NCBI GenBank assembly: GCA_946811185.2
Contig: OX328096.1
Location: 40,996,252-41,060,251, forward strand
Source of the DNA: Hippopus hippopus
Lineage: Eukaryota > Mollusca > Bivalvia > Cardiida > Cardiidae
Direction: 5' to 3'
DNA length: 64,000 nucleotides
Shown: one piece after another, positions 18,401-56,590 of the stretch
How the letters are laid out: each line of letters opens with the position of its first letter
Numbering within the stretch: position 1 is the first letter of the stretch
The notes under the pieces: model-generated
Seen by the model: the letters and a program-made list of their open reading frames with translations, nothing else
Told to the model about the DNA's origin: nothing
Databases searched by the model: none
Translations under genes and position numbers: made by a program

Positions 18401-21400
18401 AGGCTTTTGACAACATTGAAGAAATAGGAAAAAATGTTGATAAATAGTATTTTTTTTCCCACAATGTTTTCTATTTTTGAAAATACAACCTCTACTATTT
18501 CAGACTGCACAAAATGTGCAGTCTGATCTTTGATCTACATTTTCCAATACAGTGTTGTTTTTCTGGTGACATCAACTTTGAAATCCCAATGTTTGGGTTT
18601 GTACTATGCAGTGGAAATTTTCATTTAATCTATTTAGCAGATCAAGGGTCAATACATGTTGGAAAACAGTGGCAAAAAGAGGATTTAGCTAGAGTTGATA
18701 TGATAAGTACGAAAAAAGACCAATATTTACCCCATATCTTTGGCCAACCCTGGCTCCCCCTTTTGCATGGGTTTAGCATCTGTATCATCCATTGAACTAG
18801 GATCAACTACAAAAAAAATATGAAGAATACATAATAAGATAATACATCATTTTCAAAGATATTATTTTTCATAATTTGTTATGTACAGTCAAACATACTA
18901 TCTATACAATTTTGTGTCAGCTGAACTGCATCGTTTACCTCCTTTTTTTTCTGAATGGCGTTTAACAAGGTTTTCAACATTATTTCAGTAACATTGCAGC
19001 AGCCAGCGCACCTATCCATGCTCTCCTGGAGTTTTTTTTTACCAGCACTTCACACAATATTTTTCCTAAGCTACATTTGAGCTACATTTATGATTTAATT
19101 TGATGTCTGCATATTTTTTCAATTTGCACGAATCCAAAATTTTGTCGTTTTGTAAAGAGAAAAAAGCTGATTTTTACAAATCTTTTTCCCTAACGCTATA
19201 TCAAACAAGCTTCTAACGCTATATCAAACAAGCTTATACAACCCTAACAAAGAAGGCTTTTGAAAACATTATGGGAATAGGAGAAATTGCTGGTTACCAG
19301 CATTTTCTCTTTTTCCAACAATGTTTTCTACCCTTCAAATAGCAAACCCAATGATCTGCATCAAATTTAGTAAGTAGTCTGTAATGGCTTTATGGCAAGT
19401 ATAAACTTTTGTTGAATGGTCAGGACTCGGGAGTAAACTCCTTCCACTCTCCACTGACAGATTATTGTTTATTGTCCACCCTAACCAAACTTAAATTACA
19501 TGCATGAAATTACATTGAATCTGGCATGTTTAACCAGGATTTTTAACTCTTTACCAAATGGCAAAATTTTATAATCATCCAAATTCAAAGCATGCACAGA
19601 TGACAAATTAATGTAAGTCTGGCTTAAGTCGGTAAAATTTTGCTCTGAAAGGGTAAAAAAACGTGGGAAAAAGAAAAAAATGCTGATTACCAGCAATTAC
19701 TGCTTTTTCCCACAATGTTTTCTAAGGGCTTCCTCTTCAGGGTTGTTTAAACACAGGATTGTTTGGTAAAGGATTAAATAGACAAAAGTTTTCTTCCTTT
19801 TCTTTGAATGGTCCACTTCATGTCCAGGAAAAAGTTCAAGCTCAGGTACACCAGTGTACAGCTTCAAAATACATGTATAAAAGAAAATTATTACTGAATT
19901 CATTCTCAGCATTAATAATAAAAGATACAAAAATCAGTGTTTTTGTTTACTCTGAGGTGGGGAAAAGAAATGTATCTTTTGAAAATACAGCACTTAGGCA
20001 GTTACTACTGACCATCAGGTCATTTACTCCTAGCGGTCATTCACTGGTTATTGAAAAGAATGACCACACTAGGGGATCAATAAGATGTTTCTTTGAAATA
20101 CCATTTTTCAATCCTAACTTTTAACAATACAAGAGGGCCATGATGGCCCTGAAGTCGCTCACCTGAGCCTTTTGATCAAACATGACCCATTTCCAATCTC
20201 TTCAGAAATATTAAGACAAACACTCTGACAAACATTCATTAGTATTGGGCTTACAAATATGGCCTCTATAGAGTGCACACAACCTTTTTCTAGAATTTGT
20301 CTCAGCGGCCTACTTAACATTTAGAAATTATCCAGGCATACATTCCAACAAACTTTCATGAGTATTTGAGAGAAAATGTGGCCTGTAGGATGTATAAAAG
20401 GTTTTTCCAAGATTTGACCTAGTGACCTGGTTTTTTATCCAACATGACCCATATTCATACTAGTCTAAGATATTATCAAGACAAACATTCAAAGCAAATT
20501 TCAAGATTATTGGACTGAAAATGTGGCCTCTAGAGTGTACACACGGTTTTTCAAGGATGAAACTTAGTGACCTAGTTTTTATTCCACATGACCCATTTTC
20601 AGACTCATGCAAAATATCATCAAGACAAACATTCTAACAAAAGTTTAAAGAATATTGGATTGTAATTACAATACAAAAGGTTTTTCCGAGATTTGACCTT
20701 GTGACCTAGTTTTTTATCCAATATGACCCATTTTCATACTAGTCTAAGAAATTATCAAGACAAACATTCTGACCAAATTTCAAGATTATTGGACTGAAAA
20801 TGTGGCCTCTAGAGCTTACATAAGGTTTTTCTAAGATTTGACCTGGTGACCTAGTTTTTGACCTGACATGACCCATTTTCAAACCTGTCCGAAATATCAT
20901 CGAGACAAACATTCTGACCAAGTTTTGTGAGTATCAGACTGAAAATGTGGCCTCTAGAGTGTACACAAGGTAAAATTTGACGCCGGACGACTGACGCCGG
21001 ACGCCAGACACAGCACGATCACAAAAGCTCACCATGAGCACTTTGTGCTCAGGTGAGCTAAAAATGCCGGTTACCAGCATTTACTGCTTTTTTCCACAAT
21101 ATTTTGTAAGGGCTTCCTCCTCCGGGCTGTTTAAACACAGGATTGTTTGGTAAAGGATTAAGTCTTTACCAAACGACATAAGTTGGGGTTGGACCAAATT
21201 GAAACCATTTGCAGACGACAAAGTCAGTACTGCTAAAACGATTAGTTCTGTCTTTGATAGGGTAGAAAACATTGTGGGCAAAGGAGAAAATGCTGGTTAC
21301 CAGCATTTTCTCCTTTTCCCACAATGTTTTCAAAAGGCTTTACTGTCAGGGCCGTTAAAACTCCTGATTGTGCAAGTAAAGAGTTAAATACACAAAATTT

Positions 21401-27400: not shown

Positions 27401-29226
27401 ATGGCTCAGCCGTGTAAACATAGATAAATTACCAACATATACAGTGAAAGGAATAGAAAAACACAAGGGATTTGTCCTCATTTAAAACCGGATATAACAA
27501 ACGCGATTACTTTGAAGGCCTCCAAAACATGAAATGCATTTTCTGTCCGTAGTATAAGTGCAATATTTCAGCCATCAGGGGCAACATTTGGCATGAAGAT
27601 ACAAGAAGAGTTAAAGTTTAATAAAATATGGAAGAAATGGGTTAAAATCTGGCTGAAAACTGCCTAAAAACAAGTATAGATATATTTTTAATGCATCTGC
27701 AAAAAGTATCAACCCATGTCAGCCTGCACTGTTTGCGCAGGCTGACACTGGTCAAAACTCTTCGATACTGTAACTTTTCCAGATGTCCAAGGACCAGTCT
27801 AACTCATAAATCAGTTGGCTGTCACACAATATGGGTCCCATGGATCCATTGTAATTATGTGATAACTTGCATGGTACAATGTGTTGAAGAGATGCATTAA
27901 ACTCCCTTTTGCCAAAGTATCGATAATTTATAATTTGTATACGTATACAGACATTGTTGCCAAAAGCCGAAAAAATATATAGAAGATTCATCCCAAAGAA
28001 ACTTCTGCTCATATTGAAGAATAAACATTCTAAAGGACACACAAGTTATTTCAAAGATTTGACCTGGTGACATCGTTTTTGACCCAATGAGACCCATTTT
28101 CAGCCTCATCAAAGATATTGCGAAAAATATTCTGACTAACTTTCATGAGTATTGGACTGAAAATGTGGCCTCTAGAGTGTACACAAGGTTTTTCTAAGAT
28201 TTGATATAGTGAACTAGTTTTTGACCCAGTGAGACCCACTTTCAAACTTTTCCACGATTATCATCAAGACAAAGAATCTGATCAACTTTCATGGGTACTG
28301 GACTGAAAATGTGCTCTGAAGAGCATACACATCATTTTTCAAAGATCTGACACAGTGACCTAGTTTTCGAACCTGCATGACCCATTTTCTAACTCATCAA
28401 AGATATCATTAAGACAAACATTCTGGCCAATTTTCAAGAGTATTTGACTCAAAATGTGGTCTCTAGTGGGTACACATGGTTTTTCTAAGATTTGACCTAG
28501 TTTTTGACCAGACATGACCCATTTTGAAACTAGTCTGAGAAATCATGACAAACACTCTGACCAAGTTTCATGATTATTGGACAAAAAATGTGGCTTCTAC
28601 AGTAGAGTGTATACAAGGTAAAAGTTCACGACGGAAGATGCACGACATACAACGGACACAGTATGATTACAAAAGCTCTCTATGAGCACTTCATGCTCAG
28701 GTGAGCTAAAACCACTGAGGTGTAATTACAAGATCATAACTGAGACAAGGGCAATTTTGTAAGTTTGCAATTAATTAATCCCAAAATTGACATGAAATCG
28801 TAAGCAGTGGAATTTGGAAATGCTACAAAAGGTCAGATCCAGTCATTTATTTAAATCCAAACCTTTGAGTATACCCAATATATTTTGTATACTGTAGATA
28901 CCAATAATGGTAGATATATCTATATTAGGTAAGTAGAACGAGTACACACAAGAGGATTAGGGACAATGTCCAGATTTAGGAGTAAAAGAAACACTCAAAG
29001 TACATTATTCTAAATTTGAACATTTAAAACGTCTTTGGTGCTTAATTTGACTCATTGCCATGATAAAATTGATGGTTGTGAATCGAAGTTTTTTTTTTTT
29101 AATGTTTATTTTATTGTCTAACCAAAAATACCGTTGACTCTCACTTTCAGCCAAATGTCCAGTGCACTTAAGACATAAGTCTTCTATTATGATGAAAATA
29201 ACAAAACCGTTACCTGAATCTGTCAT
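12193..29226 (-). CDS. CASP3/7-like: Executioner caspase (caspase-3/7-like), complete gene of six coding exons
   Basis: Cysteine protease of apoptosis that cleaves after Asp. Coding exons on the minus strand: 29226-29214, 18806-18731, 15784-15540, 14051-13870, 13152-13011, 12428-12193. Every junction has GT donor and AG acceptor, and the phases match throughout (1, 2, 1, 0, 1), giving 894 nt and 297 residues, the usual size of a short-prodomain executioner caspase. Order: prodomain of about 14-30 residues with a possible self-cleavage site DDTD14/A, large subunit with RGKAIIINN and RTGTDNDA, catalytic SHG (His132), active-site QACQGG (Cys174), linker with possible cleavage NTTD189/A, small subunit with DFLIAYSVVPGYFSWRN (215-226 region, substrate-pocket residues). 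All catalytic and most pocket residues are present, so it looks functional. The active-site motif is QACQG rather than the QACRG of vertebrate caspase-3/7. Intron 1 is 10.4 kb of repeats. Confidence 0.95.
12566..12660. repeat. Family B palindrome fragment
   Basis: AGATCAGACTGCACAATCTG and its inverse arm CTGTGCAGTCCGATTCTGAC, followed by a TGCCCTTAGCAGCC block as at 17429-17663. One end is missing. It lies just upstream of caspase exon 6. Confidence 0.6.
13011..13152 (-). CDS. CASP3/7-like: Caspase coding exon 5 (catalytic Cys, subunit linker)
   Basis: Opens with GCATGTCAGGGTGG (ACQGG), then the linker VNTTDAKG and the start of the small subunit (EADFLIAYSVVP). 142 nt, donor GTTTGA. Confidence 0.95.
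13306..13380 (-). mobile_element. Family A MITE, internally deleted to its ends
   Basis: GGTTAAACCTTTCCCCACTC at the left and TTTGGTAACTGATTAAA at the right, with the palindrome and inner blocks gone (75 bp). It lies in caspase intron 4. Confidence 0.6.
13870..14051 (-). CDS. CASP3/7-like: Caspase coding exon 4 (catalytic His)
   Basis: Contains FVCAILSHGEEG with the catalytic histidine and ends exactly after KIFFIQ, the residue before the active-site Ala-Cys. The acceptor is TTTTTTGTACGCAG and the donor is GTAAAC. Confidence 0.95.
14359..14782 (+). mobile_element. Family A MITE, forward, carrying a SINE insertion
   Basis: Left CACTTTACCAAATGACAAAA, palindrome near 14475-14520, then a SINE at 14531-14717, then the MITE resumes with TTTTCAAAAGCTTTCC and ends GTAAAGGGTTAA. 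It lies in caspase intron 3. Confidence 0.8.
14531..14717 (-). mobile_element. tRNA-derived SINE-2 with 9-bp target duplication
   Basis: On the minus strand it opens with a tRNA-like head: box A region GGTCGCGAGGTAGAGC and box B region CACGAGTTCGATACCCGGG. AAGTATTTT flanks it at 14522-14530 and 14718-14726. The MITE sequence on either side is continuous without it, which confirms insertion. Confidence 0.85.
14887..15105 (-). mobile_element. Family A MITE, reverse
   Basis: TTAA at both ends with a well-kept palindrome (14955-15000) centred on GGTAACC. In caspase intron 3. Confidence 0.8.
15133..15346 (+). mobile_element. Family A MITE, forward, left palindrome arm lost
   Basis: TTAACTCTTTACCAAACAAC at the left. 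The first arm is reduced to GAGGAAGTAACC, while the second arm CAGTATTTTCTCCATTTCCC is present. Confidence 0.7.
15540..15784 (-). CDS. CASP3/7-like: Caspase coding exon 3 (start of large subunit)
   Basis: The acceptor is CTTTTATCATCAG; the C that follows completes the Gly codon begun in exon 2. Carries YKMNHPKRGKAIIINN and TGTDNDAVAL, typical of the caspase p20 N-terminus. The donor is GTAAGT. Confidence 0.95.
15985..16045. repeat. Family B palindrome fragment
   Basis: AGATCAGATTGTACATTCTG, GTCTTAACCTAAACTGTCTG and CAAAAGC in family B order, diverged. Confidence 0.45.
16058..16275 (-). mobile_element. Family A MITE, reverse, head-to-head with the next
   Basis: TTAACCCTTACCACACAGTC at the left. 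The right TTAA (16272-16275) is shared with the following forward copy. Confidence 0.75.
16272..16483 (+). mobile_element. Family A MITE, forward
   Basis: Starts at the shared TTAA, with an intact palindrome at 16390-16440 (centre GGTTACTAGC) and right end GTAAAGGGTTAA. With its reverse neighbour it makes an inverted pair of about 425 bp. Confidence 0.8.
16565..16900. repeat. Foldback repeat D, deleted copy (partner at 39360-39720)
   Basis: Matches 39360-39720: TTCAGTGAAAGATCGAAATT, GTGAACATCATCGGT, then ATGCTTCTAACCC, TTGATCAAAATCCAGTACAG-like, GCATACCCCCTCC-like and CATCTGGTT blocks in the same order. The inverted half around the hairpin is deleted here. Confidence 0.7.
17040..17340. repeat. 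Family B-related segments
   Basis: Contains GCAGACAGCAAAGATCAAGATC (near 17060) and a second piece, GACAGTGTAGATCAAGATCA, near 17280. Both are single arms of the family B palindrome. Confidence 0.4.
17429..17663 (-). mobile_element. Family B foldback MITE, TTAA-bounded
   Basis: TTAACCCTTATCCTGCTAAA at the left. Central palindrome of about 60 bp (17535-17598) with arms GATCAGACTGCACG and CGTTCTGTGCAGTCTGATCT, then CCGCAAAAGGTCAGTGAGTT and TTAGCAGCATTAGAG. The right TTAA (17660-17663) is shared with the adjoining family A copy. Non-coding. Confidence 0.75.
17660..17886 (+). mobile_element. Family A MITE, forward
   Basis: TTAACCCTTTACTTCATGAC at the left, a nearly perfect palindrome at 17775-17825, and right end TGTGGTAAAGGATTAA. 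Confidence 0.8.
17922..18132 (+). mobile_element. Family A MITE, forward, diverged
   Basis: TTCTTTACCAAACCAAAAAA at the left, decayed palindrome GGGAAAAGGAGAAATGCTGA, right end GTTAAAGGG without TTAA. Confidence 0.65.
18164..18385 (+). mobile_element. Family A MITE, forward
   Basis: CCTTAACTAAACAGGATTAA at the left; palindrome at 18275-18325 (centre GGTTACCGGC); right end ATAAAGGGTTAA, where a reverse fragment begins. Confidence 0.7.
18382..18500 (-). mobile_element. Family A MITE fragment, reverse, followed by family B fragment
   Basis: Shares the TTAA at 18382-18385, runs through GTCCTGATGGAGCAGGC and a degraded palindrome, and breaks off where family B palindrome sequence (CAGACTGCACAAAATGTGCAGTCTG, 18500-18525) begins. 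Confidence 0.6.
18731..18806 (-). CDS. CASP3/7-like: Caspase coding exon 2 (prodomain)
   Basis: Preceded by a pyrimidine tract and TTTTTTTTGTAG, followed by GTAAAT. Encodes the short acidic prodomain (VDPSSMDDTDAKP...), ending with two bases of a Gly codon. Confidence 0.85.
18940..19165 (-). mobile_element. SINE-1 3' fragment fused to a family A MITE fragment
   Basis: 18950-19045 matches the 3' half of SINE-1 on the minus strand (TTTCAGTAACATTGCAGC, CACCTATCCATGC, ACCAGCACTTC). From about 19060 it continues as the outer part of a family A copy (TTTGATGTCTGC...TTTTGTCGTTTTGTAAAGAG). Confidence 0.55.
19195..19400 (-). mobile_element. Family A MITE, reverse, ends diverged
   Basis: AACCCTAACAAAGAAGGC, palindrome GGAGAAATTGCTGGTTACCAG (19278-19320), then ACAATGTTTTCTACCC. 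A 17-bp direct repeat (CTAACGCTATATCAAAC) sits at its left edge. Confidence 0.65.
19543..19777 (+). mobile_element. Family A MITE, forward, in duplicated block
   Basis: TTAACTCTTTACCAAATGGC to AAAGGATTAA; imperfect palindrome. Its right half and the following 350 bp recur at 21062 onward. Confidence 0.75.
19680..20130. repeat. Duplicated block X, left copy
   Basis: Consists of the right half of the family A copy plus 19778-20130. It recurs in the same order at 21062-21161, 21388-21487 and 22250-22497 (for example TTTGAATGGTCCACTT, GAATGACCACACTAGGGGAT). I see no gene in it. Confidence 0.7.
20131..21063 (+). mobile_element. Helentron/pearl-like element with ~145-bp tandem repeats
   Basis: Left end AAGAGGGCCATGATGGCCCT (a self-complementary hairpin) then GCTCACCTGAGCC. 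The core is about five diverged repeats of roughly 145 bp, each with CAAGACAAACATTCTGACCA and GAAAATGTGGCCTCTAGAG. The right end is GAGCACTTTGTGCTCAGGTGAGCTAAAA, whose CTCAGGTGAGC is the inverse of GCTCACCTGAG at the left. A hairpin end, short inverted termini and a tandem-repeat core match what is known of non-autonomous Helentrons (pearl and Helinoto types in bivalves). No protein coding. Confidence 0.75.
21062..21161 (+). mobile_element. Family A MITE, right half only (start of duplicated block, copy 2)
   Basis: Begins at the palindrome centre (ATGCCGGTTACCAGCATTTA) directly after the Helentron-like right end and runs to AAAGGATTAA. It is closest to the right half of the 19543 copy (both have GGGCTTCCTC and TGTTTAAACACAGG). 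Confidence 0.7.
21158..21387 (+). mobile_element. Family A MITE, forward, inserted in duplicated block
   Basis: Bounded by TTAA at 21158-21161 and 21384-21387, with a perfect-looking palindrome at 21280-21325. It is absent from the first copy of the duplicated block, so it arrived after duplication. Confidence 0.85.
21514..22250. mobile_element. Non-coding element with short inverted ends inside duplicated block
   Basis: AGTGGTATTTGTCAAGGAAG near 21513 and its approximate inverse GTCTTCGACAAATACCAC near 22231-22248. The interruption is absent from the corresponding position of block X at 19880. The interior has four CCAAT/ATTGG boxes between 21895 and 22010 but no convincing ORF. Confidence 0.5.
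22250..22497. repeat. Duplicated block X, remainder of right copy
   Basis: Matches 19885-20130: TTGTTTACTCTGAGGTG, GGAAAAGAAATGTATCTTTT, ACCATCAGGTCATTTACT, GACCACACTAGGGGATCAAT. It ends at ACAATACAAG, the point where the left copy runs into the Helentron-like element. Confidence 0.7.
22506..22732 (-). mobile_element. Family A MITE, reverse
   Basis: TTAACCCTTTGGCAAACAAT at the left, palindrome with centre CTGATAATCAGC, right end GATAAAGAGTTA. Confidence 0.75.
22960..23213 (+). mobile_element. Family A MITE, forward, with internal partial duplication
   Basis: The GTGGCTCAAATGATG...GATTTGTCTTTAG block and the GGCTTTTGAAAA...AAAATGCTG segment occur twice (22980-23050 and 23055-23125) before the palindrome. 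Right end AAAGGGTTAA. Confidence 0.65.
23265..23561 (-). mobile_element. tRNA-derived SINE-1, full length
   Basis: On the minus strand: tRNA-like head GCCGAGCCCCAGTAGCTCAG with box A (AGCTCAGTCGGTAGCA) and box B (GGTTTGATCCC), a ~150-nt body (GCAGCCAGTGGCTTTGAAAG, GGGAAAGCATGGATAAG), then a tail AACAGCGTTAAACACCAAAC followed by (AATC)n at 23265-23281. About 297 bp. Confidence 0.85.
23925..24065 (+). mobile_element. Family A MITE remnant
   Basis: TTGCTAAAGGACAGTTAATT, GATGCGAGTCATCTTTAG, AAACCTTGTTGGAAAAGGAG and one arm AAATACTAGTTACC. The remainder is rearranged. Confidence 0.45.
24350..24560 (+). mobile_element. Family B foldback MITE, TTAA-bounded
   Basis: TTAACCCTTAGACTGCTAAG at the left; a palindrome of about 64 bp (24395-24455) with arms GATCAAGATCAGACTGCACA and TGTGCAGTCTGATCTTGA; right end TTATTTAGCAGGATAAAG with TTAA at 24557-24560. 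It is inverted relative to 17429-17663. Confidence 0.8.
24676..24885 (-). mobile_element. Family A MITE, reverse, second arm lost
   Basis: CTAAACTGTTTACAAAACAA at the left; GGAAAAAGGAGAAAATGCTG then an abrupt CTCCTTATCTACC; right part ends TTTTGTCCTTAGG. Confidence 0.6.
24961..25190 (+). mobile_element. Family A MITE, forward
   Basis: TTAA at 24961-24964 and 25187-25190. The palindrome is weakened (AAATGCTACTTACAAGAATTTTC). Confidence 0.75.
25200..25880. other. AT-rich caspase intron sequence, nothing recognised
   Basis: No coding or structured repeat signal found. Confidence 0.35.
25885..25950 (-). repeat. tRNA-like (SINE head) fragment
   Basis: On the minus strand GATAGCAGTGGTAGAGTGGC (box A-like) and GGTTGTGGGTTCAAGTTC (box B-like) are spaced as in a tRNA gene, but no cloverleaf closes. 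It is probably a third SINE type. Confidence 0.45.
26235..27293 (+). mobile_element. Helentron-like element with ~165-bp tandem repeats
   Basis: Has the same left hairpin AAGAGGGCCATGATGGCCCT as the element at 20131, then CGCTCCACTGGC. The core is about four repeats of roughly 165 bp (start points near 26496, 26661, 26825, 26997) containing TAAGCCCATGTAAAACTTGT and GGGCTATAATTTGGGCACTC. The right end has GGACGGACAGACAGACGACG, then GCTGGCCTTCGGCCAGTGGAGC, whose CCAGTGGAGC is the inverse of GCTCCACTGG at the left. In caspase intron 1. Confidence 0.75.
27690..27775. repeat. Family C palindromic repeat
   Basis: TTAATGCATCTGCAAAAAGT, then arms CATGTCAGCCTGCACTG and GCGCAGGCTGACACTGG, ending CGATACTG. 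About 85 bp. Confidence 0.65.
28045..28710 (+). mobile_element. Helentron/pearl-like element, right part with ~145-bp repeats
   Basis: Four to five diverged repeats (GACCCATTTTCAAACT, AAAATGTGGCCTCTAGAGTG), then right end GAGCACTTCATGCTCAGGTG with GAGCTAAAA. The left hairpin end is missing. Confidence 0.7.
29214..29226 (-). CDS. CASP3/7-like: Caspase coding exon 1 (MTDS + 1 base)
   Basis: A 13-nt coding part: ATG ACA GAT TCA G followed by GTAACG. The start is chosen because the leftover G completes a Val codon with the TT that opens exon 2 and no other ATG fits the phase. The untranslated part of this exon extends upstream and its limit is not visible. Confidence 0.8.
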
Positions 29227-31012: not shown

Positions 31013-32360
31013 TGATGGCCCTGAAATCGCTCACCTGAGTCATTTGACCAAACATGACCCATTTTCAATCTCTTTTGAGATATTATGACAAACATTCTAC
31101 CAAGATTTTCATGAGTTATTGACCCGAAATGACCCACTTGCAAACTGGTGCAAGACCAACATTCTGACCAAGTTTCATGAGTATTGCATTAAAAATGAGG
31201 CCTCTAGAAAGTAAACAAGGTTTTCGAAGATTTGACCTAGAGACCTAGTTTTTGATCCAACATTACCCATTTTCGAACTCTTTCAAGATATTATCAAGAC
31301 AAACATTCTGACCAACTTTTAAGAGTTTCAGACTAAAAATGTGGCCTCTACAGCATACACAAGGTTTTTCTAAGATTTGGCCTAGTGACCTAGTTTTTGA
31401 TCAGACATTACCCATTATCAAACACTTTTGAAATATCACTAAGACAAACATTCTGACCAAGTTTCATGAGTATTGGACTGAAAATGTGGCCTCTAGAGCG
31501 TACAAAAGGTTTTTCTAAGATTTAACCAAGTGACCTAGTTTTTGACGCGACATTACCCATTATCAAACTCTTTTGAGATATCACCAAAACAAACATTCTG
31601 ACCAAGTTTAAAGAGTATCAGACTGAAAATGTGGCCTCAAGAGCGTACACAAGGTTTTTCCAATTTTTGACCCAGTGACCTAGTTTTTGACCCCACATGA
31701 CCCATTATCAAACTCGCCTGAGCTATTATCAAGACAAACATTCTGACCAAGTTTCAAGAGTTTTTGACGGAAAATGTGGTTTCTAGAGCATACACAAGGT
31801 TTTTCTAAGATTTGACCTAGTGACCTAGTTTTTGACCCGACATGACCCATTTTCAAACTCGTCTGAGATATCATCAAGACAAACATTCTGACCAATTTTA
31901 AGGAGTTTTGGATTGTAAATGTGGCCTCTAAAGCGTACACAAGGTTTTTCTAAGATTTGACCTAATGACCTAGTTTTTGACCCCACATAACCTATTTTTG
32001 AACTCATCCAAGATATCATCCAGATAAACATTCTGACCAACTTTCAAGAGTTTTGGACTGAAAATGTGGCCTCCAGAGCGTACACAAGGTTTTCCTAAGA
32101 TTTGACCTACTGACCTAGTTTTTGACCCGACATGACCCATTTTCGAACTCGTCCGAGATATCATCAAGACAAACATTCTGACCAACTTCCAAGAGTGTTG
32201 GACTGAAAATGTGGCCTCTAGAGCGTACACAAGGTTTTTCTGAGATTTGACCTAGTGACCTAGTTTTTGACCCGACATGAACCATTTTCAAACTTGTCCG
32301 AGATATCATCAAGACAAACATTCTGACCAACTTCCAAGAGTGTTGGACTGAAAATATGAT
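31013..32360 (+). mobile_element. Helentron/pearl-like element with nine ~145-bp repeats, right end missing
   Basis: Left hairpin AAGAGGGCCATGATGGCCCT and GCTCACCTGAG, then about nine repeats with strict 145-bp spacing toward the right side (CAAGACAAACATTCTGACCA, GTACACAAGGTTTTTCTAAG, GACCTAGTGACCTAGTTTTT). The array ends in TGGACTGAAAATATG without the CTCAGGTGAGC terminus. Confidence 0.75.
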
Positions 32361-32384
32361 AAGCATAGAGTACAAAATGTGGAT

Positions 32385-32673
32385 TGCTCACCTAATGATT
32401 GTCACTAACAGACAAAAACGGGCGTCTTCATCAGTTGCACAGACGTAGAATAGAATGGGCCAAGTTTTATTGCATGGATCTAGACTTGTAAATGTTTCTA
32501 GATATGCATTGCCAATGCTTATGTGGCATTGCTCTCCTAATAATTGTCACCAACAGACAAAATCAGACATCTTCACCAGTTGCACAGATGTAGAAAAGAA
32601 TGGACCAAGTTTTATAACATGGATCTAGACTTGTAAATGTTTCTAGATATGCATTGCCAATGCTTATATGGCA
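32385..32673. repeat. Two-unit tandem repeat, ~144 bp each
   Basis: GCTCACCTAATGATTGTCAC...AATGCTTATGTGGCA is followed directly by GCTCTCCTAATAATTGTCAC...AATGCTTATATGGCA. Shared interior blocks include GATCTAGACTTGTAAATGTT. The unit is unlike the neighbouring 145-bp repeat in sequence although similar in length. Confidence 0.75.
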
Positions 32674-38315: not shown

Positions 38316-38866
38316 CTTAATCTGTTAAACAGTTACCTACACAAAAAAGTTGCTTTTCAGTCATAAAAACATGGAATGGGATAGTAGAGTAGCATTTATT
38401 CAGTAATAAGCTAACAAGTTCAATTAAACAAGGACTCGTCATTGATTGTATGTATATATGACGGAAAAGGACAATTTTGCAAACACTCAAGAGAAGGCAG
38501 CAATTATTTATCACAAGCAAAAGCCCCTTTTCTGGTAATACTTTGAAAGACTATCAATTGACAGGAGCATTAGTTGAACATCTACTGAAACGGGTTAATT
38601 TGACATAAATTCGACACACTTAAAATCACCAGCATTGCATATGTTTATGATGCTGCCATGGGAAGCAAGAACACTGCACAGCATGTTGTAGTTTCCTAAC
38701 CTCTTTGTCAAACATGTCATAGCACACAAATATTCCATGTCACTTAATCAACTGGTCAAATACATTGTATCACAAAATTTCGCAAATGGTAAGACCCACA
38801 ATCACTTAACAGTGCACAATTGTATGAATTCTGTTCCTACCAAGTTTTCATGCTAAACTTTACAAT

Positions 38867-39016
38867 TGTCATGGAGAGGGGTTAGATATATAAGCACTGC
38901 AAACCTCCCTTGCTGTTGAGCTAGCTTTTACAGCGATGGGGTTTGGTGCATTTCTCTCCTGGAAGTTAAGCAACATGCATTAGGTTAGTGCCTGGATCGG
39001 TGACCAGGCTGTTACA
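38867..39016 (+). repeat. TRIM left LTR with TATA box and 5S-like segment
   Basis: TATATAAG at 38887-38894 could direct Pol II. 38961-39011 follows the 5S rRNA internal control region: GGAAGTTAAGCAAC (box A position), then GGTTAGTGCCTGGATCGGTG and ACCAGGC (intermediate element and box C). Spacing agrees with animal 5S rRNA. Confidence 0.8.
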
Positions 39017-39138
39017 CATTACATTGGTGGCAGAGCTGGGATAATGACAACTGCCAGACAGGAGTTGCCTTACCCATGTATATTCCCCTGGTTTATTTGT
39101 ATATAAATCTCAGGGTCAAGACTTGAAGGGGAGAGTAA

Positions 39139-39290
39139 TGTCACGGAGAGAGGGTAGATATATAAGCACTTCAAACCTGCCTTGCTGTTGAGCTAGCTTT
39201 TACAGTGATTGGGTTTGGTGCATTTCTCTCAACTGGAAGTTAAGTAACGTGCATTAGGTTAGTGCCTGGATGGGTGACCAGGCCGTTACA
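39139..39290 (+). repeat. TRIM right LTR with TATA box and 5S-like segment
   Basis: TATATAAG at 39159-39166 and 5S-like segment at 39235-39285. Its box C (CTGGATGGGTGACC) is closer to canonical 5S than the left LTR, which has ATCGG. The LTRs differ at about 15 positions, so the insertion is not recent. Confidence 0.8.
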
Positions 39291-39359
39291 CAATAAAGAA
39301 AGTCCTTTTCACACATGTAGTTTTGAAATCTTTCAAAGTTTGAAAAACACATACTTGAT

Positions 39360-39720
39360 TTAAATATAAATAGAGGATATTTGTTTTTTACAGTGAAAGA
39401 TCAAAATTTATTTTTGAGTGAACATCATCGGTAATATTTTCACGAGTGGCACAGCCACAAGTGAAAATATTACCAATGATGTACACTCGATGAAATAAAT
39501 TTCGATCTTTCTCCGAAAAAAACAAATATCTTATTTATTTCATGCTTTTAACCCTTCTTGGGGGAACTTGATCAAAATCCAGTACAGGTCTTTTCGGTTA
39601 TTCCCTGGGGCATACCCCCTCCGCATAGCAACGCATTACAATATTATGTCAAACGCGATAAATGTAAGGTAGATTACGTCATATTTCCATCTGGTTGTGA
39701 GGCACGCGCATTTAAAAACC
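39360..39720. repeat. Foldback repeat D, longer copy
   Basis: 39375-39440 and 39465-39535 are inverted repeats of each other (TTTTTTACAGTGAAAGATCA and the GATCTTTCTCCGAAAAAAAC arm) with a perfect inner hairpin GGTAATATTTTCAC / GTGAAAATATTACC. The 3' flank to about 39720 is shared with 16565-16900. Confidence 0.7.
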
Positions 39721-39956: not shown

Positions 39957-40184
39957 GTAATTCTTTACCAAACAACAGACTCTTGACTTGTCCAAATTGA
40001 AAGTGTTTGCAGATGACAAATTGAATATTACTCATTTTGGTTAGATTTGTTTTTGATGGATTAGAAAACATGGTGGGAAAAGGAGAAAATGCTGGTTACC
40101 AGCATTTTCTCCTTTTCCCACAATGTTTTCAAAAGCTTTTTGTCCCAGGTTCTTTAAATGCAGGATTGTTTGGTAAAGGGTTAA
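39957..40184 (+). mobile_element. Family A MITE, forward, 280 bp upstream of ECSIT
   Basis: Left TTCTTTACCAAACAACAGAC, perfect palindrome at 40074-40123, right end GGTAAAGGGTTAA. Confidence 0.85.
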
Positions 40185-40464: not shown

Positions 40465-40947
40465 ATGCTTGCTTGGAGGAGGCTGCTCTATACACAAATA
40501 ATTACACAGCAAAGCAGGACCATAGTTTTGACAGAAAACCTGAGTTGGAGACGAAGGACCACTTGTCTCACCAAATGTAGAGGAGGATTGATTCCTGGAA
40601 GCTCTCACTGTTTAAGCACCAGTGTTGGTTGTTGTAAAAATGATAGAGGTGATAAAATATCAAAAGACATCAGTGAAACAGAGTATTTTGACAGATTTTA
40701 TGAAGTTGTTTTGAAGGAGTCAAAGAATGATAATAATTTTGCACTTAAAAAAATTCAGAATGCAGATATGAGTGAGTTAGACAAAAAGAGGGCTCTTCAG
40801 CGATGGACATTTGACCAGGTGGTGGATATCTTTGTCAAAAATAACTTGAACCGTCGTGGACATGTAGACTTTATCTATGAAGCTCTAGATCGCATCGTAA
40901 GTCTGGGATTACAGAGAGACTTGGAGGCATACAGAAAGCTATTGATG
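40465..40947 (+). CDS. ECSIT: ECSIT coding exon 1
   Basis: 161 codons: presequence-like start, variable linker, then helical repeats (LDKKRALQRWTFDQVVDIF, GHVDFIYEALDRIVSLGL). The donor is ATG|GTACAT. Confidence 0.9.
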
Positions 40948-43900
40948 GTACATAACTGAGTGTTTCTATGAGGCGGTCTCTCTTGTTGCATTTAGCAGTG
41001 CTCTTCTTCCCCTAACCAGTGAATTTTATTTAACTCTTTACCACACCATAAAAATGTAGACTTGTCCAAATTGAAAGCATTTGCAGGTGAAAATTTACAT
41101 ATGCCTCAAATGATGGAATTTGTCTTTGATATGGTTAAAAGATACTTTGGGAAAAGGAGAAAAATGCTGGTTACCAGCATTTTCTCCTTTTTCCTGAGTG
41201 TTTCAGAAGGCTTCTTTGTCTGGGTCGTTTAAACTCGGGATTTTGTGGTAAAGGGTTAATGGTACTAATATATCATATGCAATTATCCTATATTTTTCTG
41301 TGCTACAGTGTTTGGTGATTTTGATAATCACGTTATTCTTCTGATTACCTGTTTACCAAACAGTGCCAAGTTTTAATGACATGGTGCAAGAAGGCTTTTG
41401 AAAACTGGTAATCAGCACATTCTTCTCTTTCCACAATATTTTATGCCCTTTGAAATGCAAGTGCTTTAATTTCATCCATATTTGATTCGATGTTACCTTT
41501 GCTTTTAATGTGTGCAAGCCTTTGTCATTTTGTAAAGAGTTAAGTTGTGAACAAAGTCAATGCTTACTGGTAACTGAATATGAGGATTAGTTACCTTTGC
41601 TATTCATACATATAGGCAGTTATTTCAGAAAAACATATATCTGTCTAGGTTTGTGTATACATATTTTCATAACCCTGTACCTAATAATCCTGTGTCTTAT
41701 GACCCTAAGATAGAAGGCTTTTGAAAACATTGCGGGAAAAGGAGAAAATGCTGATTACAAGCATTTTCTCCTTTTTCCTACACTATTACTCTTTCAGAGA
41801 CAAATTTCATCATTTTAGGCATATTTGTCATCTGAAACAGCTTTGAATATGGACCAGTCCAGATATTTTGTCGTTTATTAAACAGTTGAAGCTTATCTTT
41901 ATTTTCTTATCCGAAGGCTTTTCCTCAAGATGGAAGGATGGTAGCTAAGAGTACATGGCAAGTGGAGATGAAACATTATCCCATAGAACAGGACTGTGCC
42001 ATTGATATCATCCATCAGCTCGAAGAGAATGGTAAGTCAAGTTGGGTAACTCTTTATCAGATAACAAAATTTTGGACTTGTACATGTCACTCTCTTTAAC
42101 TCATTTCCACTCAACAAAAATGTGGACGTGTCCAATCTGAAAGCATTTGCAGACAACAATTCCAATGTGGCTCAAATGAGGGAATTTGTCTCTGATATGA
42201 TAGAAAACATTGTGGAAAAAGGAGGAAATGCTGTTTACCAGCATTTTCTCCTTTCCAACAATGTTTTCGAATGGTTTCTTTCTCAGGGTTGTTAAAACTC
42301 AAGGTTGTATAAAGGGTTAACTGGCTAAACAGACAGGCTTCTTGATCTATTCATCATGAACAAGCTGCATTTATTACCATGAAAATCATAAATCAGAGAA
42401 AAAAAAATTATTAGATAAAGGTGAGAGAAGTGCTATGGATGGTCACATTTGGCTGTTGAAGGTGATCCATAACCAGTCAAATCTGTTTTCTCTTGAAGGT
42501 TTGATTCCAGACACAGAATTCTGTGTCCAAATGGTGGAACTCTTTGGACTACGGTCACATGTGACAAGAAAGCTCCGTAGGAATCATTATTGGGGAAGAA
42601 AGTTTAATAATGCTAACCCATATCAATTGCCCTTTCATCTACCTGATGATCCTATTGAATTAGCTATTCTTGCACTTGAAAAGATGGTGGTCGATGTTCA
42701 GAATGAAATACATGTTTGGGAGGTGAGTCTTCAAATACACGTGAGTGGCACTCTTGGAAAAGGTGTTTAACCCTTTACCACACAATCCTGAATTCTAACG
42801 ACCTTGAGAAGTAGGCCTTTTGAAAACATTGTGGGGAAAAGAGAAAATACTGGTAACCTGCATTTTCTCCTTTTCCCACAATGTTTTCTAGACTTTCTGA
42901 TACAGATCCCATCATTTGTGCCATACATATTTTGTTGTCTGCAAGTAGTTTGAAATTGGACCTGTCTAAAACATTGTCGTTTGGTAAAGATTTAATGAAT
43001 CTTTGTAATGTATTGTAATAAGCAAGTTGTTGCATAATACAAATTCATTTTATCTAAAGACCATCTGAATCATCAGTGATATGCAGAGTGGTCCTTTGAT
43101 AGGCAAAAAATTTACTAACAAAAGGTCTTGACTAAGATCAGCCTGCACAAGCTGACCTGGGTTGATACTTTTTGCAGAATGCATTAACAATATTTTCACA
43201 GAGAATGTATTGTGTATTTATTTCCATACTGTACAGGTGTGTATCTAGGTTGGTATTCTTCATTCTTCATTCATTTTAAATTTTATACCTTTCCATTTGA
43301 TTTGTTGAAATTGAAAAATAGCCATTTAAAGGCGTTTCAGCGAGTTATTTCTAGCACAGAGAATTTTGTGAAATTTGACACAGAGACACTTCAAAGTATA
43401 TTCTTTCAGTATATGAAGAGATAATCAGACCTAACCAGATGAACAAAAAAGTTCTGAGCCCATAAAGAACATAACCCTTCTTTCAAATTACACAAAAACC
43501 CAGTTATTGCAGCAAACATCAGAATTTTGTGAGTAAAGTCTATCATTTCAGCCAAATCATGTTCTGCGTGTTTTAAATTCATAAGAAATCGATTGATCCT
43601 CTCAACTTGATGAGAAATTAATATTTGTTTCAAATTAATGACTCGCTATCGATGTTTCAATAACATCCATAACTGCCAAAAAGATCATTTTAATATAGAA
43701 AGTAAAGACATTATTTGACTTCCAAAAAAATATAGCGCAGAGATTTTTCTTATTTTTCGCAGATATACACATGGGTATATCCTTTATCAAAAAATGCAAA
43801 AAAAATGATAGGTCGCCTAGCTACTTTTCCCATTTTAGGACTCGATTACCTCCCTTGGAACAACGAAAATGACACAAATCACCCAAGATTCAAATTAATA

Positions 43901-46900
43901 AGTAAGATTAATTATTTTCAGCACAAATTTATGTCTTTTTCACAATAAAGATAATATTGCCTTTCCCTGATATATACTCGATTGAACAATGGAATGGGAC
44001 GGCTTTGGAAAACATTTTGGTAAAAAGAGTAATTGCTCATAACAAGCAATTTTGCCTTTCCCCACAATATTTTTACACAAGCGGCATTTCAACTTGCATT
44101 AATACCTTTTTTAAATTTGTCATCTGCAGCTTCTTTCATTTTAGAAGTTCCTATTCAATTCATTTAGGAAAGGGTTAATGCGAAATAGTACATTTTTATG
44201 GATGGAAAAACAATAAAAGTAGAACTGTCCAGGAATTACTTGAAGGCATAAATTACAGATGAATCTTATAGCAAAATGAACCAAGCGATCCCGATTTATA
44301 TCAATATCCAGGAAAGAGACTTTGAAAACACTGAAAAGGAGAATTGCGTGTAGTTTTCTCTTTTTTCTCACACTAAACTTACTATCCAGATAAGTGATGT
44401 CCGAAAAATGTACCTGTTCCATGTCCGCTGTGCGGAACGGTTTACACTTTCATACATTGATCTTTAAAAAAAACTTGTATCTACCACTACTTCCTCCACG
44501 TCTTGCAGCTGAAATCGGCAGTCTGATAATAGTACTACAATCGAACAAAATTACGCGCAAAGAAACAGAAAATGCGCGGAAATGTTGCGCAGTGACAACC
44601 TGATGAAATGTCTTTAATTAGCAGAGACAGAAAACTAGCCATATGATTGGCTGAAATGTTCTGTCTCAGCTAATCAGATGAACAGGCTTTCATTTAGAAA
44701 TTTAGAGAACAACCTTTCCATATGCCACAATGTTTTAAAGTGGTCTACTGCAAGATGAAAGGCTATAACTGCTTGTGTAGTTAACCTTTTATAGTTCCTG
44801 AATACATAAAGGTGGCAAATGGAATGGACTGACATTTTAATACCTTATCACACTGTAATGAACTCTTAACCAATCTTTTTTAAAATGCATTGGTTTATGG
44901 CCTCTTTTTTTACTTTAGCTTTTATACTTTCCTCATTCACTATGGATATCATAATCCAGTGGAATTGTTGAGGTCTGAAGTCAAACTTTGACGAACTTTC
45001 CCTTTTAATCAATGATCACAAACCAGTTGCTGTTTGTCTGCAAGAAACCTTCCTTAAACGGGAGGATGATATCTCTATCAAATACCATTCCATTTACAAT
45101 AAAATCTTTACCGAAGGCGAAAAAGCCAAAGGTGGAGTTTCTATTATTGTTAACAACAACATTCCTCATAAAGTTATCTCTCTTAATACAAACTTGCAAG
45201 CTGTTGCCATCAGATTATCTTTACACATTGCTCTTACACTGTGTTCTTTATATCTGCCCCCGAGCACACCTATCAATGAGACCAATCTGAATGATCTCAT
45301 TTCTCAATTGCCGTCCCCCTATATTCTTGCTGGGGACTTTAATGGTCACAGTGTTATGTGGGGTTGCGATGACACTAACCAGAGAGGTTTACAGTTGGAG
45401 AGCTTCATTTCGAACAACTCTTTGTCTTTCATGAATGATAACAAGTCCAAAACCTACTTACATCCAGCAACTGGATCTTACTCTTCTATTGATTTAACCT
45501 TATGTAGCCCAGTCTTACTTCCCAATTTCACTTGGAAAGTGACTGAGGATTTGTGCGGAAGTGATTACTTCCACATTATCTTTTCATCTACACAACCATC
45601 CAGCAGTGTACGACCGCAGAAATGGAAGCTTTCCAAAGCCAATTGGAATAAATTTGAAACCCTCTGTGAACAGACCATTACACATGACAAATTTAGAGAT
45701 TGCGATGATCCTGCAAAACTTTTTACTTCCCTATCAATTGATGCAGTCCCTCAGACCTCGACAAATCCAAAACGTCCTGACAAGCCTTGATACAATGATG
45801 ATTGTAAACAGGCTGTCAGAAACAGAAAACAAGCCCTTAGAAAGTTTAACCTCAGGCCTACCAAAGAAAATCATAACTTATTCTATATTTCCAGAGCAAA
45901 AGCTCGACGAACCATTAGAGAAAGTAAGCGCAAGGCTTGGAGACAATATGTCTCTAAATTAAATAGTAGAACTACTACTAAAAAAACCTGGGACATGATC
46001 AGAAAGATCAATGGCAAAGGCCAGCCCCCTCTTAGTCACCTTGAAGTTAACAATACTTCGTTGGAATCGCCCCAAGATATAGCTGATGCTCTTGCCGACA
46101 CCTTTTGCAAAAAGTCTTCCTCTGCAAACTATACTGAAAAGTTTCAGAGGAATAAAGCCAGAGAAGAAAAGAAAAAAACTAAATTTCAGTTCTTCTAATT
46201 CAGAGCATTATAATAAACTCTTCACCTTTAAAGAATTAAAATCTGCTCTGAATAAAGCTCACGATTCTTCTCCGGGCCCAGATAAAGTTCATTACCAGTT
46301 TTTAAAACACTTACCTTTTACTTCTCTCTCAGTTTTACTTGATATTTTCAATGATATCTGGCAGTCAGGTGTTTTTCCTTCATCCTGGCGGGAAGCACTA
46401 GTCATTCCAATCCCAAAACCTGGCAAGGATGCCAGTGACCCGGCTAACTATCATCCAATAGCTCTTACAAGTTGTCTCTGCAAGACCTTAGAACATATGG
46501 TCAACGACAGGCTTGTTTGGTTTTTAGAGAAAAACAACCTCATCGTTGATGTACAGAGTGGATTTCGACGCCAACGTGGCACCATAGATCATCTTGTCCG
46601 CTTTGAAACCTTTGTCAGAGAAGCCTTTATTAATAGACAGCATGTAGTATCTGTCTTCTTCGACCTTGAAAGTGCTTACGATACGACTTGGAAATACGGA
46701 ATTCTTAAAGACTTGCATGACTTTGGTCTTCGAGGCTGTCTTCCTCTTTTTATTTCAGCCTTCTTGGATGAACGTCTTTTCCGCGTCCGAGTTGGTAATA
46801 CTGTCTCGGGAGCCCGTGAACAGGAGATGGGTGTACCCCAAGGATGTATTCTCTCTGTTACACTTTTCAGTGTGAAAATAAACAGTATAGTTAAAGCTAT

Positions 46901-49900
46901 CTGTCCTGGTGTAGACTGTTCCCTTTATGTTGATGACTTCGTTATATGCTTCAGATCTCGAAATATGAATATTATTGAGAGACAACTTCAATAGTGTCTC
47001 AACAAGCTCCAAACGTGGTCTGATGAAAATGGCTTCACATTTTCAAAGTCCAAAACTAAGTGCATGCACCTCTGTAATCTACGAGGTGTTCATCCAGAAC
47101 CTGAACTGTATTTGGACAAAACTAAAATCAAAGTCGTTTCTGAGTTTAAATTTCTTGGAGTCATCTTTGACAGAAAGCTTTCCTTCCTTCCTCACATCAC
47201 TGCACTTAAAAAGAAGTGCAAGAAGGCTCTTAATCTTCTAAAGGTTGTGGCCCATTCTGAATGGGGAGCAGACCGTAAAGTCCTCTTGCGGCTTTATCGG
47301 TCTTTAGTTCGCTCCAAATTAGACTATGGATCTATTGTTTACGGATCTGCCTGTAAATCTTACCTGAAAATTCTCGATTCTATACACCACGAAGGTCTGC
47401 GTCTTGTACATGGAGCTTTCAGAACTTCTCCCGTCAATAGTCTCTATGTTGAGGCTAATGAACCTTCTCTTTCTTACAGGAGGGAAAAACTCTTGCTTCA
47501 ATATCTTTTAAAACTGAAGTCCAATCGTTTTAATTCAACTCATAACATTGTTTTTAAACCTCAGTATAAACGTCTTTTTGAAAGGAAACCAAATGTTATT
47601 CCTCCATTTGGTATCCGCATGGAGCCCATTGTAAATAACCTTGGCATAGACACTGAGTGTATTGCCGACTATAAAATCTCTGAAATCCCTCCATGGACAC
47701 TAAACAGTGCAGAATTCAGATTTGACCTTGCATCTGACAAAAAGTCTATCACGGATAGAACTGTGTTTCATGCTAGATACAACGAGATAAAGGAGCATTA
47801 TTTTTCCTTCAAACCCATCTATACAGTTGGATCTAAAGAAGGAAATTCTGTAGCAGCTGCCGCTGTTTATGGACAAAGGAGCCTAAAGTGCCGCCTTCCA
47901 AACAACTCCTCTATCTTCTCTGCTGAAATTAAAGCAATTGATCTTGCCCTTAATCTAGCTGAATGTTCTAATTCCAACCGTTTCATTATCTTCTCGGACT
48001 CTTTGTCAACATTACAAGCCCTTTCACATCAATGCCTTGAGAATCCCTTAATCTGTAATTTACTCGAAAGGATCTCACAAATTTCTTCTATGAATAGATT
48101 GGTGTTCTGCTGGCTTCCAAGTCATGTAGGCATCAGAGGCAATGAAAATGCCGATAGGTCTGCTAAATCTGCACTTAACCTTCCCATTTCAGATTTTAAA
48201 GTTCCACACACTGATTTTAAATCCTCCGTTTTAAAACATATCCAATCTTCTTGGCAATCCCAGTGGGATGCTGATGTTTTCAATAAACTGCATTCAGTTA
48301 AACCGTCCCTTGGCAAATGGTACCCCGTTTACAGGTCTGTTCGTCGAGAAGAAGTGATAATTGCACGACTTCGAATTGGCCATTCACGCATCACACATTC
48401 CTGGCTCTTGACCAGAGATGATGCCCCTGAATGTATTCCATGCAATGCATCCTTTTCTGTAAAACATATCCTACTAGATTGCATTGGCTTTCAGCCAGTT
48501 CGTTCAAAATATTTCAACGTCAATAGTTTGAAAAATCTTTTTGATTCTGTCAGCATTGAATCTATTATCGCTTTCATAAAGGAGATTGGCATTTACAATA
48601 AACTGTGATATTTACTCTTGCGTTTCTTACCCATCTTTTTACAACATTATTTATTCCTTTAATATTCAATTTGCATCTCCTTAATGGGAGGATTAGCCCT
48701 CTTGGGGGCATCTTATCTCATTGGAGATGGACCTCTTTAATGGGAGTATACTGATCCCATTGGAGGCTCCAATCTTTACCAGTTTTAACACTCATTTCCA
48801 AGGAAAAGCAATATCGTCATTTTTACCTTTTAAAAGTCTTGAGTAGGCAGGGAATACCCAGCCACTCGATATCATATTTTGTGCACATTATAAATGACAC
48901 ATATTTCTACCTTATTTAAAGACTTCTTACTATCAATCCAGCATTTACTTCATACTTTTTTATCACATTCTTAACTCTTATCATTTAAAACTATTGAGTA
49001 GATAGGGATTGCCCTGTGACTCAATAATGCCCTTTATGCATATTAAGATCACTCATAATACTTCTTAATTCAATTCCTTTATTATCATTAATGTATTCAA
49101 ACTTTATTTGGTTTAAACAATTCCACTTTTATTATCTTTTAACACAGATATGCGCGCTAAATGACCAAAGTTGTCGATGCGCCATAAAACAACATTCATT
49201 CATTCATTCCTTATCACACTAGAGGTATGTCATTTGCTGAAAAATGAAAGAAACTAAAAGAAAAAAAAAATTTAATAATATTCGATGAAACAGCTCAAAA
49301 GCATATATATGAATAGTAGAACTTCATCAGTGTTGAGGACATTAATTTGTGGCTTGGTCAGATAAATGATTGGTTTGCCAAGGTGGGTACTGAAATCTTT
49401 ACCAAGTGACAAAACTTTGGACTGGTTCAAATTCTGAACAGGTGGGGTTCAAATTCTGAACAGGTGTATCGGACAAATTTAGCTCAAATAATTAGATTTG
49501 TCTTGGAAAGGTTAGAAAACATTGTGGGAATAGGTGAAAATGCTGGTTACCAGCATTTTCTCCTTTTCCCACACTGTTTTCGAAAGGCCTCATCCTCAGT
49601 CATTAAAACACGAGATTGGTTAGTAAAGAATTAGTCAACATGACTGAAGCATTTGATTATTGATATTATGGCTGTATCTCATACCATCATTTTTACTGAT
49701 CAGCTAGTTTAATATTAGTTTAATCCATAAATGTACACATGCAACTTTGTAAGACTTTGCAGTTCACAGTTTTGGAAAAAATTGTGGAAAAAGGTATAAT
49801 TACTTGTAACAAGTATTTGCGTATTTTTTTCCTCACAGTATTTTCAGATCTTTTGAAAATGGAATTTTCCTTTCTTTCAAGTGTTTGGCCGAGCCCTGGT

Positions 49901-55296: not shown

Positions 55297-56590
55297 TTAT
55301 ACCCCCCTTCAACGAAGTGGGGGTATATTGCTTTGCTAATGTCCGTCGGTCCGTCGGTCGGTAGACCTTACCTTGTCCGGATGATAACTAGACACAGAAT
55401 TGACCTAGGTTTGTCAAATTTGGCACAGACATGCGTCTTGGAGTGTAGATGATCCCTATTGATTTTGAGGTCAATCGGTCAAAGGTCAAGGTCACAGTGA
55501 CCGACAACATGTTGACAGATAGACCAAACCTTGTCAGGATGATAACTAGACACAGAATTGACCTAGGTTCGTCAAATTTGGCACAGACATTCATCTTGGA
55601 GTGTAGATGATCCCTATTGATTTTGAGATCAATCGGTCAAAGGTCAAGGTCACAGTGATCGTCAACATGTTGATATATAGACCAAACCTTGTCCGGATGA
55701 TAACTAGACACAGAATTGACCTAGGTTCGTCAAATTTGGCACAGACATGCGTCTCAGAGGGTAGATGATCCCTATTGATTTTGAGGTCAATCGGTCAAAG
55801 GTCAAGGTCATAGTGACCGTCAACATGTTGATATATAGACCAAACCTTGTCCGGATGATAACTAGACACAGAATTGACCTAGGTTTGTCAAATTTGGCAC
55901 AGACATTCGTCTCGGAGTGCAGATGATCCCTATTGATTTTGAAGTCAATCGGTCGAAGGTCAAGGTCACAGTGACCGTCAACATGTTGATATGTAGACCA
56001 AACCTTGTCCGGATGATAACTAGACACAGAATTGACCTAGGTTCGTCAAATTTGGCACAGACATGCATCTCGGAGTGTAGATGATCCCTATTGATTTTGA
56101 GGTCAATCGGTCAAAGGTCAAGGTCACAGTGACCGTCAACATGTTGATATATAGACCAAACCTTGTCCAGATGATAACTAGACACAGAATTGACCTAGGT
56201 TTGTCAAATTTGGTACAGACATGCGTCTCGGAGTGTAGATGATCCCTATTGATTTTGAGGTCAATCGGTCAAAGGTCAAGGTCACAGTGACTGTCAGCAT
56301 GTTGATATATAGACCAAACCTTGTCCGGATGATAACTAGACACAGAACTGACCTAGGTTCGTCAAATTTGGCACAGACATTTGTCTTGGAGTGCAGATGA
56401 TCTCTATCGATTTTGAGATTAATCCATCAAAGGTCAAGGTCACAGTGGCCTTCAACTTAATGATATTTAGACCTAACCTTGTCCGGATGATAACTAGACA
56501 CAGAATTGACCTAGGTCCTTCAAATTCTTACAGATATTCATCTTGGAGTGTAAATGATCCCTATCGATTTTAAGGTTAATCCATGCCGAA
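55297..56590 (+). mobile_element. Helentron-like element, TTATACCCCC type, with eight 158-bp tandem repeats
   Basis: Left hairpin TTATACCCCCCTTCAACGAAG / TGGGGGTATA, then GTCCGTCGGTCC. The array has CCTTGTCCGG start points at 55371, 55529, 55687, 55845, 56003, 56161, 56319 and 56476, an almost exact 158-bp period. Each unit has GATAACTAGACACAGAATTG and GGTCAAAGGTCAAGGTCACA. The last unit is truncated and I see no right terminus. Confidence 0.75.

Follow-up and report, generated by a model that had tools for sequence, protein, structure and literature searches.

The closest described relative of the element reported here is Ajax, a pair of TRIMs of 421 and 434 bp from the nemerteans Lineus longissimus and Notospermus geniculatus (Kojima 2024, PMC10886601). 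According to that paper, the 5S rRNA part of Ajax LTRs is limited to box A, IE and box C, and the elements have a tRNA-Leu primer site and are flanked by 5-bp duplications. The same text proposes the group TRIMp3 for Cassandra, Helenus and Ajax, and calls the origin of Ajax almost certainly independent of that of Cassandra. It reports that a Repbase search with Ajax found a likeness to moth SINE3, suggests a SINE3 insertion as the origin of Ajax, and describes a screen for Ajax that covered two nemertean genomes (PMC10886601).

We analysed a stretch of DNA of 64 kb (the window) and found a gene-free retrotransposon of 424 bases that carries the control region of a 5S rRNA gene in both LTRs. 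From its sequence the element is probably a TRIM with an internal promoter derived from 5S in each LTR, of the Ajax kind and within the TRIMp3 group. A first-pass annotation had called it a Cassandra-like TRIM and had been aware of no animal equivalent. The TRIM with a 5S-derived promoter in its LTRs stands, whereas the assignment to the Cassandra family does not (the primer site is that of tRNA-Leu, and the element measures 424 bp), and Ajax has been described as a TRIM of animals that bears this same part of the 5S promoter (Kojima 2024, PMC10886601). The novelty is largely taken by Ajax, and the element joins a known type.

The framework that the first-pass annotation had outlined was recovered throughout: two direct repeats of about 150 bp with TGT...ACA ends, CAAT flanks on both sides, a primer site starting with TGG, a purine tract ahead of the second repeat, 122 bp in between, and the motif TATATAAG upstream of the 5S-like part in both LTRs (Table 1). 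The purine tract ends three bases ahead of the 3' LTR. Several features expected of a TRIM are in place, namely two TG...CA LTRs, no coding region, a length below 1000 bp, a PBS and a PPT, and a duplication of 4-6 bp. In this single copy the duplication can be read as 4 bp (CAAT) with TGT...ACA ends, or as 5 bp (ACAAT, one base earlier) with the LTR end moved one base inward. The element is richer in G+C than the window (46% vs 36%), and blastn at E<=1 found no further copy of the LTR in the 64 kb.

Table 1. Features of the element and its immediate flanks, in window coordinates.
Feature	Position	Strand	Description
5' target-site duplication	38863-38866	+	CAAT; or ACAAT from 38862 if the 3' LTR ends at 39289
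5' LTR	38867-39016	+	150 bp; TGT...ACA; starts TGTCA, ends TTACA
TATATAAG, 5' LTR	38887-38894	+	putative TATA; -28 to -21 of the start placed by 5S spacing
Putative R region	38915-38929	+	15 nt; from the start placed by 5S spacing (38915) to TTTT at 38926-38929
5S-like box A / IE / box C, 5' LTR	38962-39005	+	35/44 columns identical to the mollusc 5S query, plus one gap column
Internal domain	39017-39138	+	122 bp; too short for a retrotransposon protein gene
Primer site (PBS) TGGTGGCAGAGCTGGGAT	39025-39042	+	starts TGG; 8 bp inside from the 5' repeat
Polypurine tract (PPT) GAAGGGGAGAG	39125-39135	+	followed by TAA, then the 3' LTR
3' LTR	39139-39290	+	152 bp; starts TGTCA, ends TTACA
TATATAAG, 3' LTR	39159-39166	+	-30 to -23 of the predicted start; distance two bases longer than in the 5' LTR
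TTTT	39198-39201	+	candidate Pol III terminator for an RNA initiated in the 5' LTR
5S-like box A / IE / box C, 3' LTR	39236-39279	+	36/44 columns identical to the mollusc 5S query, plus one gap column
3' target-site duplication	39291-39294	+	CAAT

Aligned over 150 columns, the two repeats differ by 11 substitutions and one 2-bp indel. With substitution rates assumed to lie between 4e-9 and 1e-9 per site per year, the resulting LTR distance of 0.077 gives an age of about 10-39 million years. By this measure the copy is old, and it is probably inactive. The PBS matches tRNA-Leu-AAG/TAG at 16/18 positions and is the single best tRNA match in the window when 25 tRNA 3' ends are compared with both strands of the 64 kb; four other sites reach 14/18. 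Against the plant iMet tRNA the PBS scores 13/18, and we rejected membership in Cassandra on this comparison. The tRNA 3' ends, like the 5S genes used below, were queries composed for this comparison rather than database records.

The 5S-like stretches of the two LTRs correspond to positions 48-92 of 5S rRNA. The first-pass annotation had placed them at 38961-39011 and 39235-39285; both LTRs are indeed 5S-like, and the aligned part stops six bases short of those ends. Searched with a mollusc 5S query by blastn, the window gave E values of 4.7e-4 for the 5' LTR and 3.8e-5 for the 3' LTR, with the next match at 0.84. An nhmmer search with five animal 5S queries gave 4.7e-4 and 3.5e-4, with the next window match at 2.4. 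In both searches the two LTRs were the sole significant 5S matches in the 64 kb. When each repeat was shuffled 2000 times with its dinucleotide content preserved, the mollusc-5S score was never reached. For human 5S the corresponding counts were 6/2000 (5' repeat) and 0/2000 (3' repeat), and for fly 5S they were 22/2000 and 2/2000; human 5S alone also gave weaker blastn matches (E 0.12 for the 5' LTR and 0.006 for the 3' LTR).

Within these stretches the boxes occur in the right order and at spacings within one base of 5S, box C of the 5' LTR being one base farther from 5S than that of the 3' LTR. We also scanned both strands of the window with the published Cassandra pattern of box A and box C (at most two mismatches per box, gap of 15-25 nt) and found only these two sites, with boxes 17 apart and with 2 and 2 mismatches in the 5' LTR and 2 and 1 in the 3' LTR. 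Taken alone this pattern is weak evidence, because it occurred 34 times over 100 simulated 64-kb sequences at the same stringency; with three mismatches per box the window holds 24 sites vs 27.7 expected. No match came from pattern scans of viral contigs and prokaryote genome contigs, as one would expect of an element from animals.

The Rfam covariance model for 5S rRNA (RF00001) matched neither a 2.2-kb piece nor two slices of 111 bases at E<=10, and had no match at the gathering threshold across the whole window. The first-pass annotation had staked its 5S claim on a covariance match, and taken literally this outcome goes against it. The model, however, asks for 5S structure, and Ajax is described in the available text as carrying the boxes only. 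We read the missing match as a probable loss of 5S structure with the promoter sequence kept, as published for Ajax. Between the LTRs, the 5S stretch and the remainder have diverged at about equal frequency (3/44 and 8/106 substitutions, respectively). In all three differing columns of the stretch the 5S base survives in one of the LTRs, as would be expected of an inserted element that was nearer to 5S.

The alternative that best survives these results is an ordinary TRIM transcribed by Pol II, in which TATATAAG in U3 serves Pol II and the 5S-like stretch is an unused, passive remnant of SINE3 or 5S caught in the LTR. We regard this as unlikely. TATATAAG does lie where a Pol II TATA would serve; the first-pass annotation had proposed a dual Pol II/Pol III promoter, and the position of the motif at -28/-30 does not single out such an arrangement, since it suits an upstream TATA of Pol III as well as of Pol II. 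The lack of a 5S RNA recognised by Rfam and the ordinary conservation of the 5S stretch between the LTRs also fit a passive remnant. The flank immediately after the 3' LTR has an AATAAA (39292) at which Pol II transcription of this copy could finish. Against this, boxes A, IE and C are recognisable and the adjoining parts of 5S are not, a pattern that even decay would not be expected to leave, though a partial insert would also fit. The LTRs themselves contain neither AATAAA nor ATTAAA, which is weak evidence against Pol II transcription because 78% of 152-nt window stretches lack both as well.

A second account would do without an LTR retrotransposon altogether and explain the repeats as a tandem duplication of a 5S-derived SINE (SINE3). 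Such SINEs exist, and the available text on Ajax proposes a SINE3 insertion as its origin (Kojima 2024, PMC10886601), yet a tandem duplication leaves unexplained a tRNA-Leu PBS and a purine tract correctly placed between the repeats, as well as the TGT...ACA ends and the target duplication that bracket the element; with PBS, PPT and target duplication all present we rejected this account as very improbable. Least probable of all is a plain TRIM with a chance likeness to 5S, which can draw on the missing covariance match, on the frequency of the Cassandra box pattern in simulated sequence and on the fly 5S scores of the shuffled 5' repeat, and which we rejected on the blastn, nhmmer and mollusc-5S shuffle statistics, the boxes being also in the right order and spaced to within one base.

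Under the favoured reading, an Ajax-kind TRIM with a 5S-derived promoter, the layout of the LTRs suggests how the element could have been propagated. TFIIIA and TFIIIC would bind the 5S boxes, and TFIIIB would be positioned on TATATAAG at -28. Pol III would then start near 38915, read through the PBS and PPT and stop at the T4 run of the 3' LTR (39198-39201), yielding an RNA of about 287 nt whose terminal repeat R measures 15 nt. Reverse transcription would be primed by tRNA-Leu, and copying and integration would be carried out in trans by the enzymes of a Gypsy-type element. The 5S boxes, in U5, would be copied from the RNA's 5' end and TATATAAG, in U3, from its 3' end, so that reverse transcription would reunite both halves of the promoter in every new LTR.

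Against this scheme stands a T4 run at +12 of the predicted start in the 5' LTR, through which Pol III would have to read. In its favour, there is no further T4 run between 38930 and 39197; only 5% of 268-nt stretches of the window are equally free of T4, although the higher G+C content of the element partly explains this. The first-pass annotation had also proposed to look for an autonomous Gypsy partner sharing the PBS and PPT. A Pfam scan of the 20 ORFs of at least 120 aa in the window, plus two shorter ECSIT pieces, found no autonomous LTR element; the 20 ORFs comprised two with ECSIT matches, three belonging to a non-LTR element and 15 with no match.

We also folded the predicted RNAs. 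The 287-nt transcript had a z of -3.8, with none of 200 shuffles equally stable, and when 14 start positions were stepped along the LTR the lowest z (-4.0) fell at 38917, adjoining the predicted start. The 60-nt ends of the transcript share 40 pairs, and none of 60 random stretches of 287 nt had more than 34. As a control, a z of -3.8 or lower was found in 4/60 stretches drawn at random from the window, which is rich in palindromes. Folding of each LTR by itself was unremarkable (z -1.9 and -0.4), and the whole-element RNA has a z of -2.4, with 2/100 shuffles as stable. The inverted repeat within the LTR is unusual in the 5' copy (17/1000 shuffles) and not in the 3' copy (717/1000). Pairing of the transcript ends into a panhandle is suggestive only.

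The element sits ahead of an ECSIT gene, whose likely start codon (40465) is about 1.2 kb away. Pfam placed ECSIT_N at 40465-42770 and ECSIT_C at 50296 and 54355, and the only relative found for these exons was one protein with 78% identity and 59% query coverage. Between the ECSIT_N and ECSIT_C exons sits a non-LTR retrotransposon (44972-48608) with endonuclease, RT and RNase H and with frame breaks. Among the best 120 of 1350 matches to its RT were relatives with 86% identity over the whole query and 90% over 86% of the query, together with one of 53% identity in a MAG of Candidatus Thiodiazotropha taylori. We take this bacterium to be a symbiont of lucinid clams, and the protein in its MAG may be host contamination.

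The window is also rich in repeats of other kinds. A 155-bp palindrome at 39376-39530, 85 bp downstream of the TRIM, consists of two nested inverted repeats with 89% complementarity, and has sub-threshold Rfam microRNA matches on both strands. Another palindrome, of about 70 nt with arms of GTGGGAAAAGGAGAAAATGCTGGT and its complement, occurs at 27 places in the 64 kb (for example 40068-40139, 42207-42278, 42826-42897 and 49519-49590), within longer units that contain TTAACCCTTTACCA-like sequence. The palindrome is near-perfect in many copies, and the 27 copies have 61-78% identity to a reference copy, forming a very dense hairpin-type repeat. Arrays of a 145-bp tandem repeat lie at 20258-20981, 28034-28617 and 31152-32390, and inverted at 58101-59585; these presumably resemble repeats of bivalve genomes, and six 15-mers of the 145-bp unit had no occurrence in paper texts. 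A further tandem array at 55340-56587, with a period of 158 bp, has seven register positions, six of them with at least 90% identity and one with 72%, and in its translation up to 56000 a similar peptide (PIDFE.NRSKVKV...) appears three times.

The repeats of the window tentatively suggest a bivalve host; a nemertean host is less likely, and with it the element could be Ajax proper. A molluscan host would extend Ajax-type elements from one ribbon-worm family to a second animal phylum, and inheritance, transfer or convergence would become the question. Among the matches listed in a search of open-licence papers, titles and abstract openings held no 5S-bearing TRIM from a mollusc. Tentatively, we entertain the idea that this is a 5S-promoter TRIM in a mollusc, beyond the two ribbon worms, that kept its tRNA-Leu PBS and 420-bp size through inheritance or a transfer between phyla, or else arose by a third independent capture of a 5S promoter by an LTR. 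That tentative picture includes an internal promoter in U5, a TATA in U3, a 15-nt R at the apex of the LTR inverted repeat and a Pol III transcript whose ends pair as a panhandle (40 pairs between 60-nt ends). The element adds weight to the view that LTR elements repeatedly acquire Pol III promoters from small RNA genes, as in Cassandra, Ajax and Helenus.

Of the known systems, the biv-TRIM of bivalves is likewise a TRIM, and its purine tract GGGGAGA is contained in the tract found here (as given in the available part of PMC6934838). Its repeats of 202-218 bp and interior of 77-80 bp differ from the 150/152 and 122 bp of this element, and its conserved core TGATCCCAAAGGAC is absent here (best 8/14); the main text of that paper nowhere uses the phrase "5S rRNA" (PMC6934838). 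We rejected biv-TRIM on repeat size and core motif. Helenus, a group of TRIMs with tRNA promoters found also in pteriomorph bivalves, shares a Pol III-type promoter in the LTRs, and in animals has duplications of 4 bp, comparable to CAAT on the 4-bp reading here, according to PMC10886601. The promoter of Helenus, however, is tRNA-derived, and we rejected this assignment on the result of ARAGORN, which found no tRNA in the window, though a strongly decayed tRNA could escape its detection.

Cassandra, the plant TRIM, is nearer: as far as the available parts of PMC7215508 and PMC10853983 describe it, it has a 5S-derived Pol III promoter in both LTRs, the TRIM layout and a whole-element RNA predicted to form an LTR-to-LTR super-hairpin, to be compared with the z of -2.4 found here. 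It differs in its primer site, which matches methionine tRNA (TGGTATCAGAGC) rather than tRNA-Leu, and in its size, at least 563 bp in the PMC10853983 data set vs 424 bp here. Ajax has 5-bp duplications, where those of the element here read as CAAT or ACAAT (4 or 5 bp by boundary choice), and differs in being reported only from two nemerteans. It shares with our element the partial 5S promoter (A-IE-C) in the LTRs, the tRNA-Leu PBS, a closely similar size (421/434 vs 424 bp) and, as presumed for both, reliance on an autonomous LTR element. Likened to Ajax by published description rather than by sequence alignment, the element is best filed as an Ajax-like TRIMp3.
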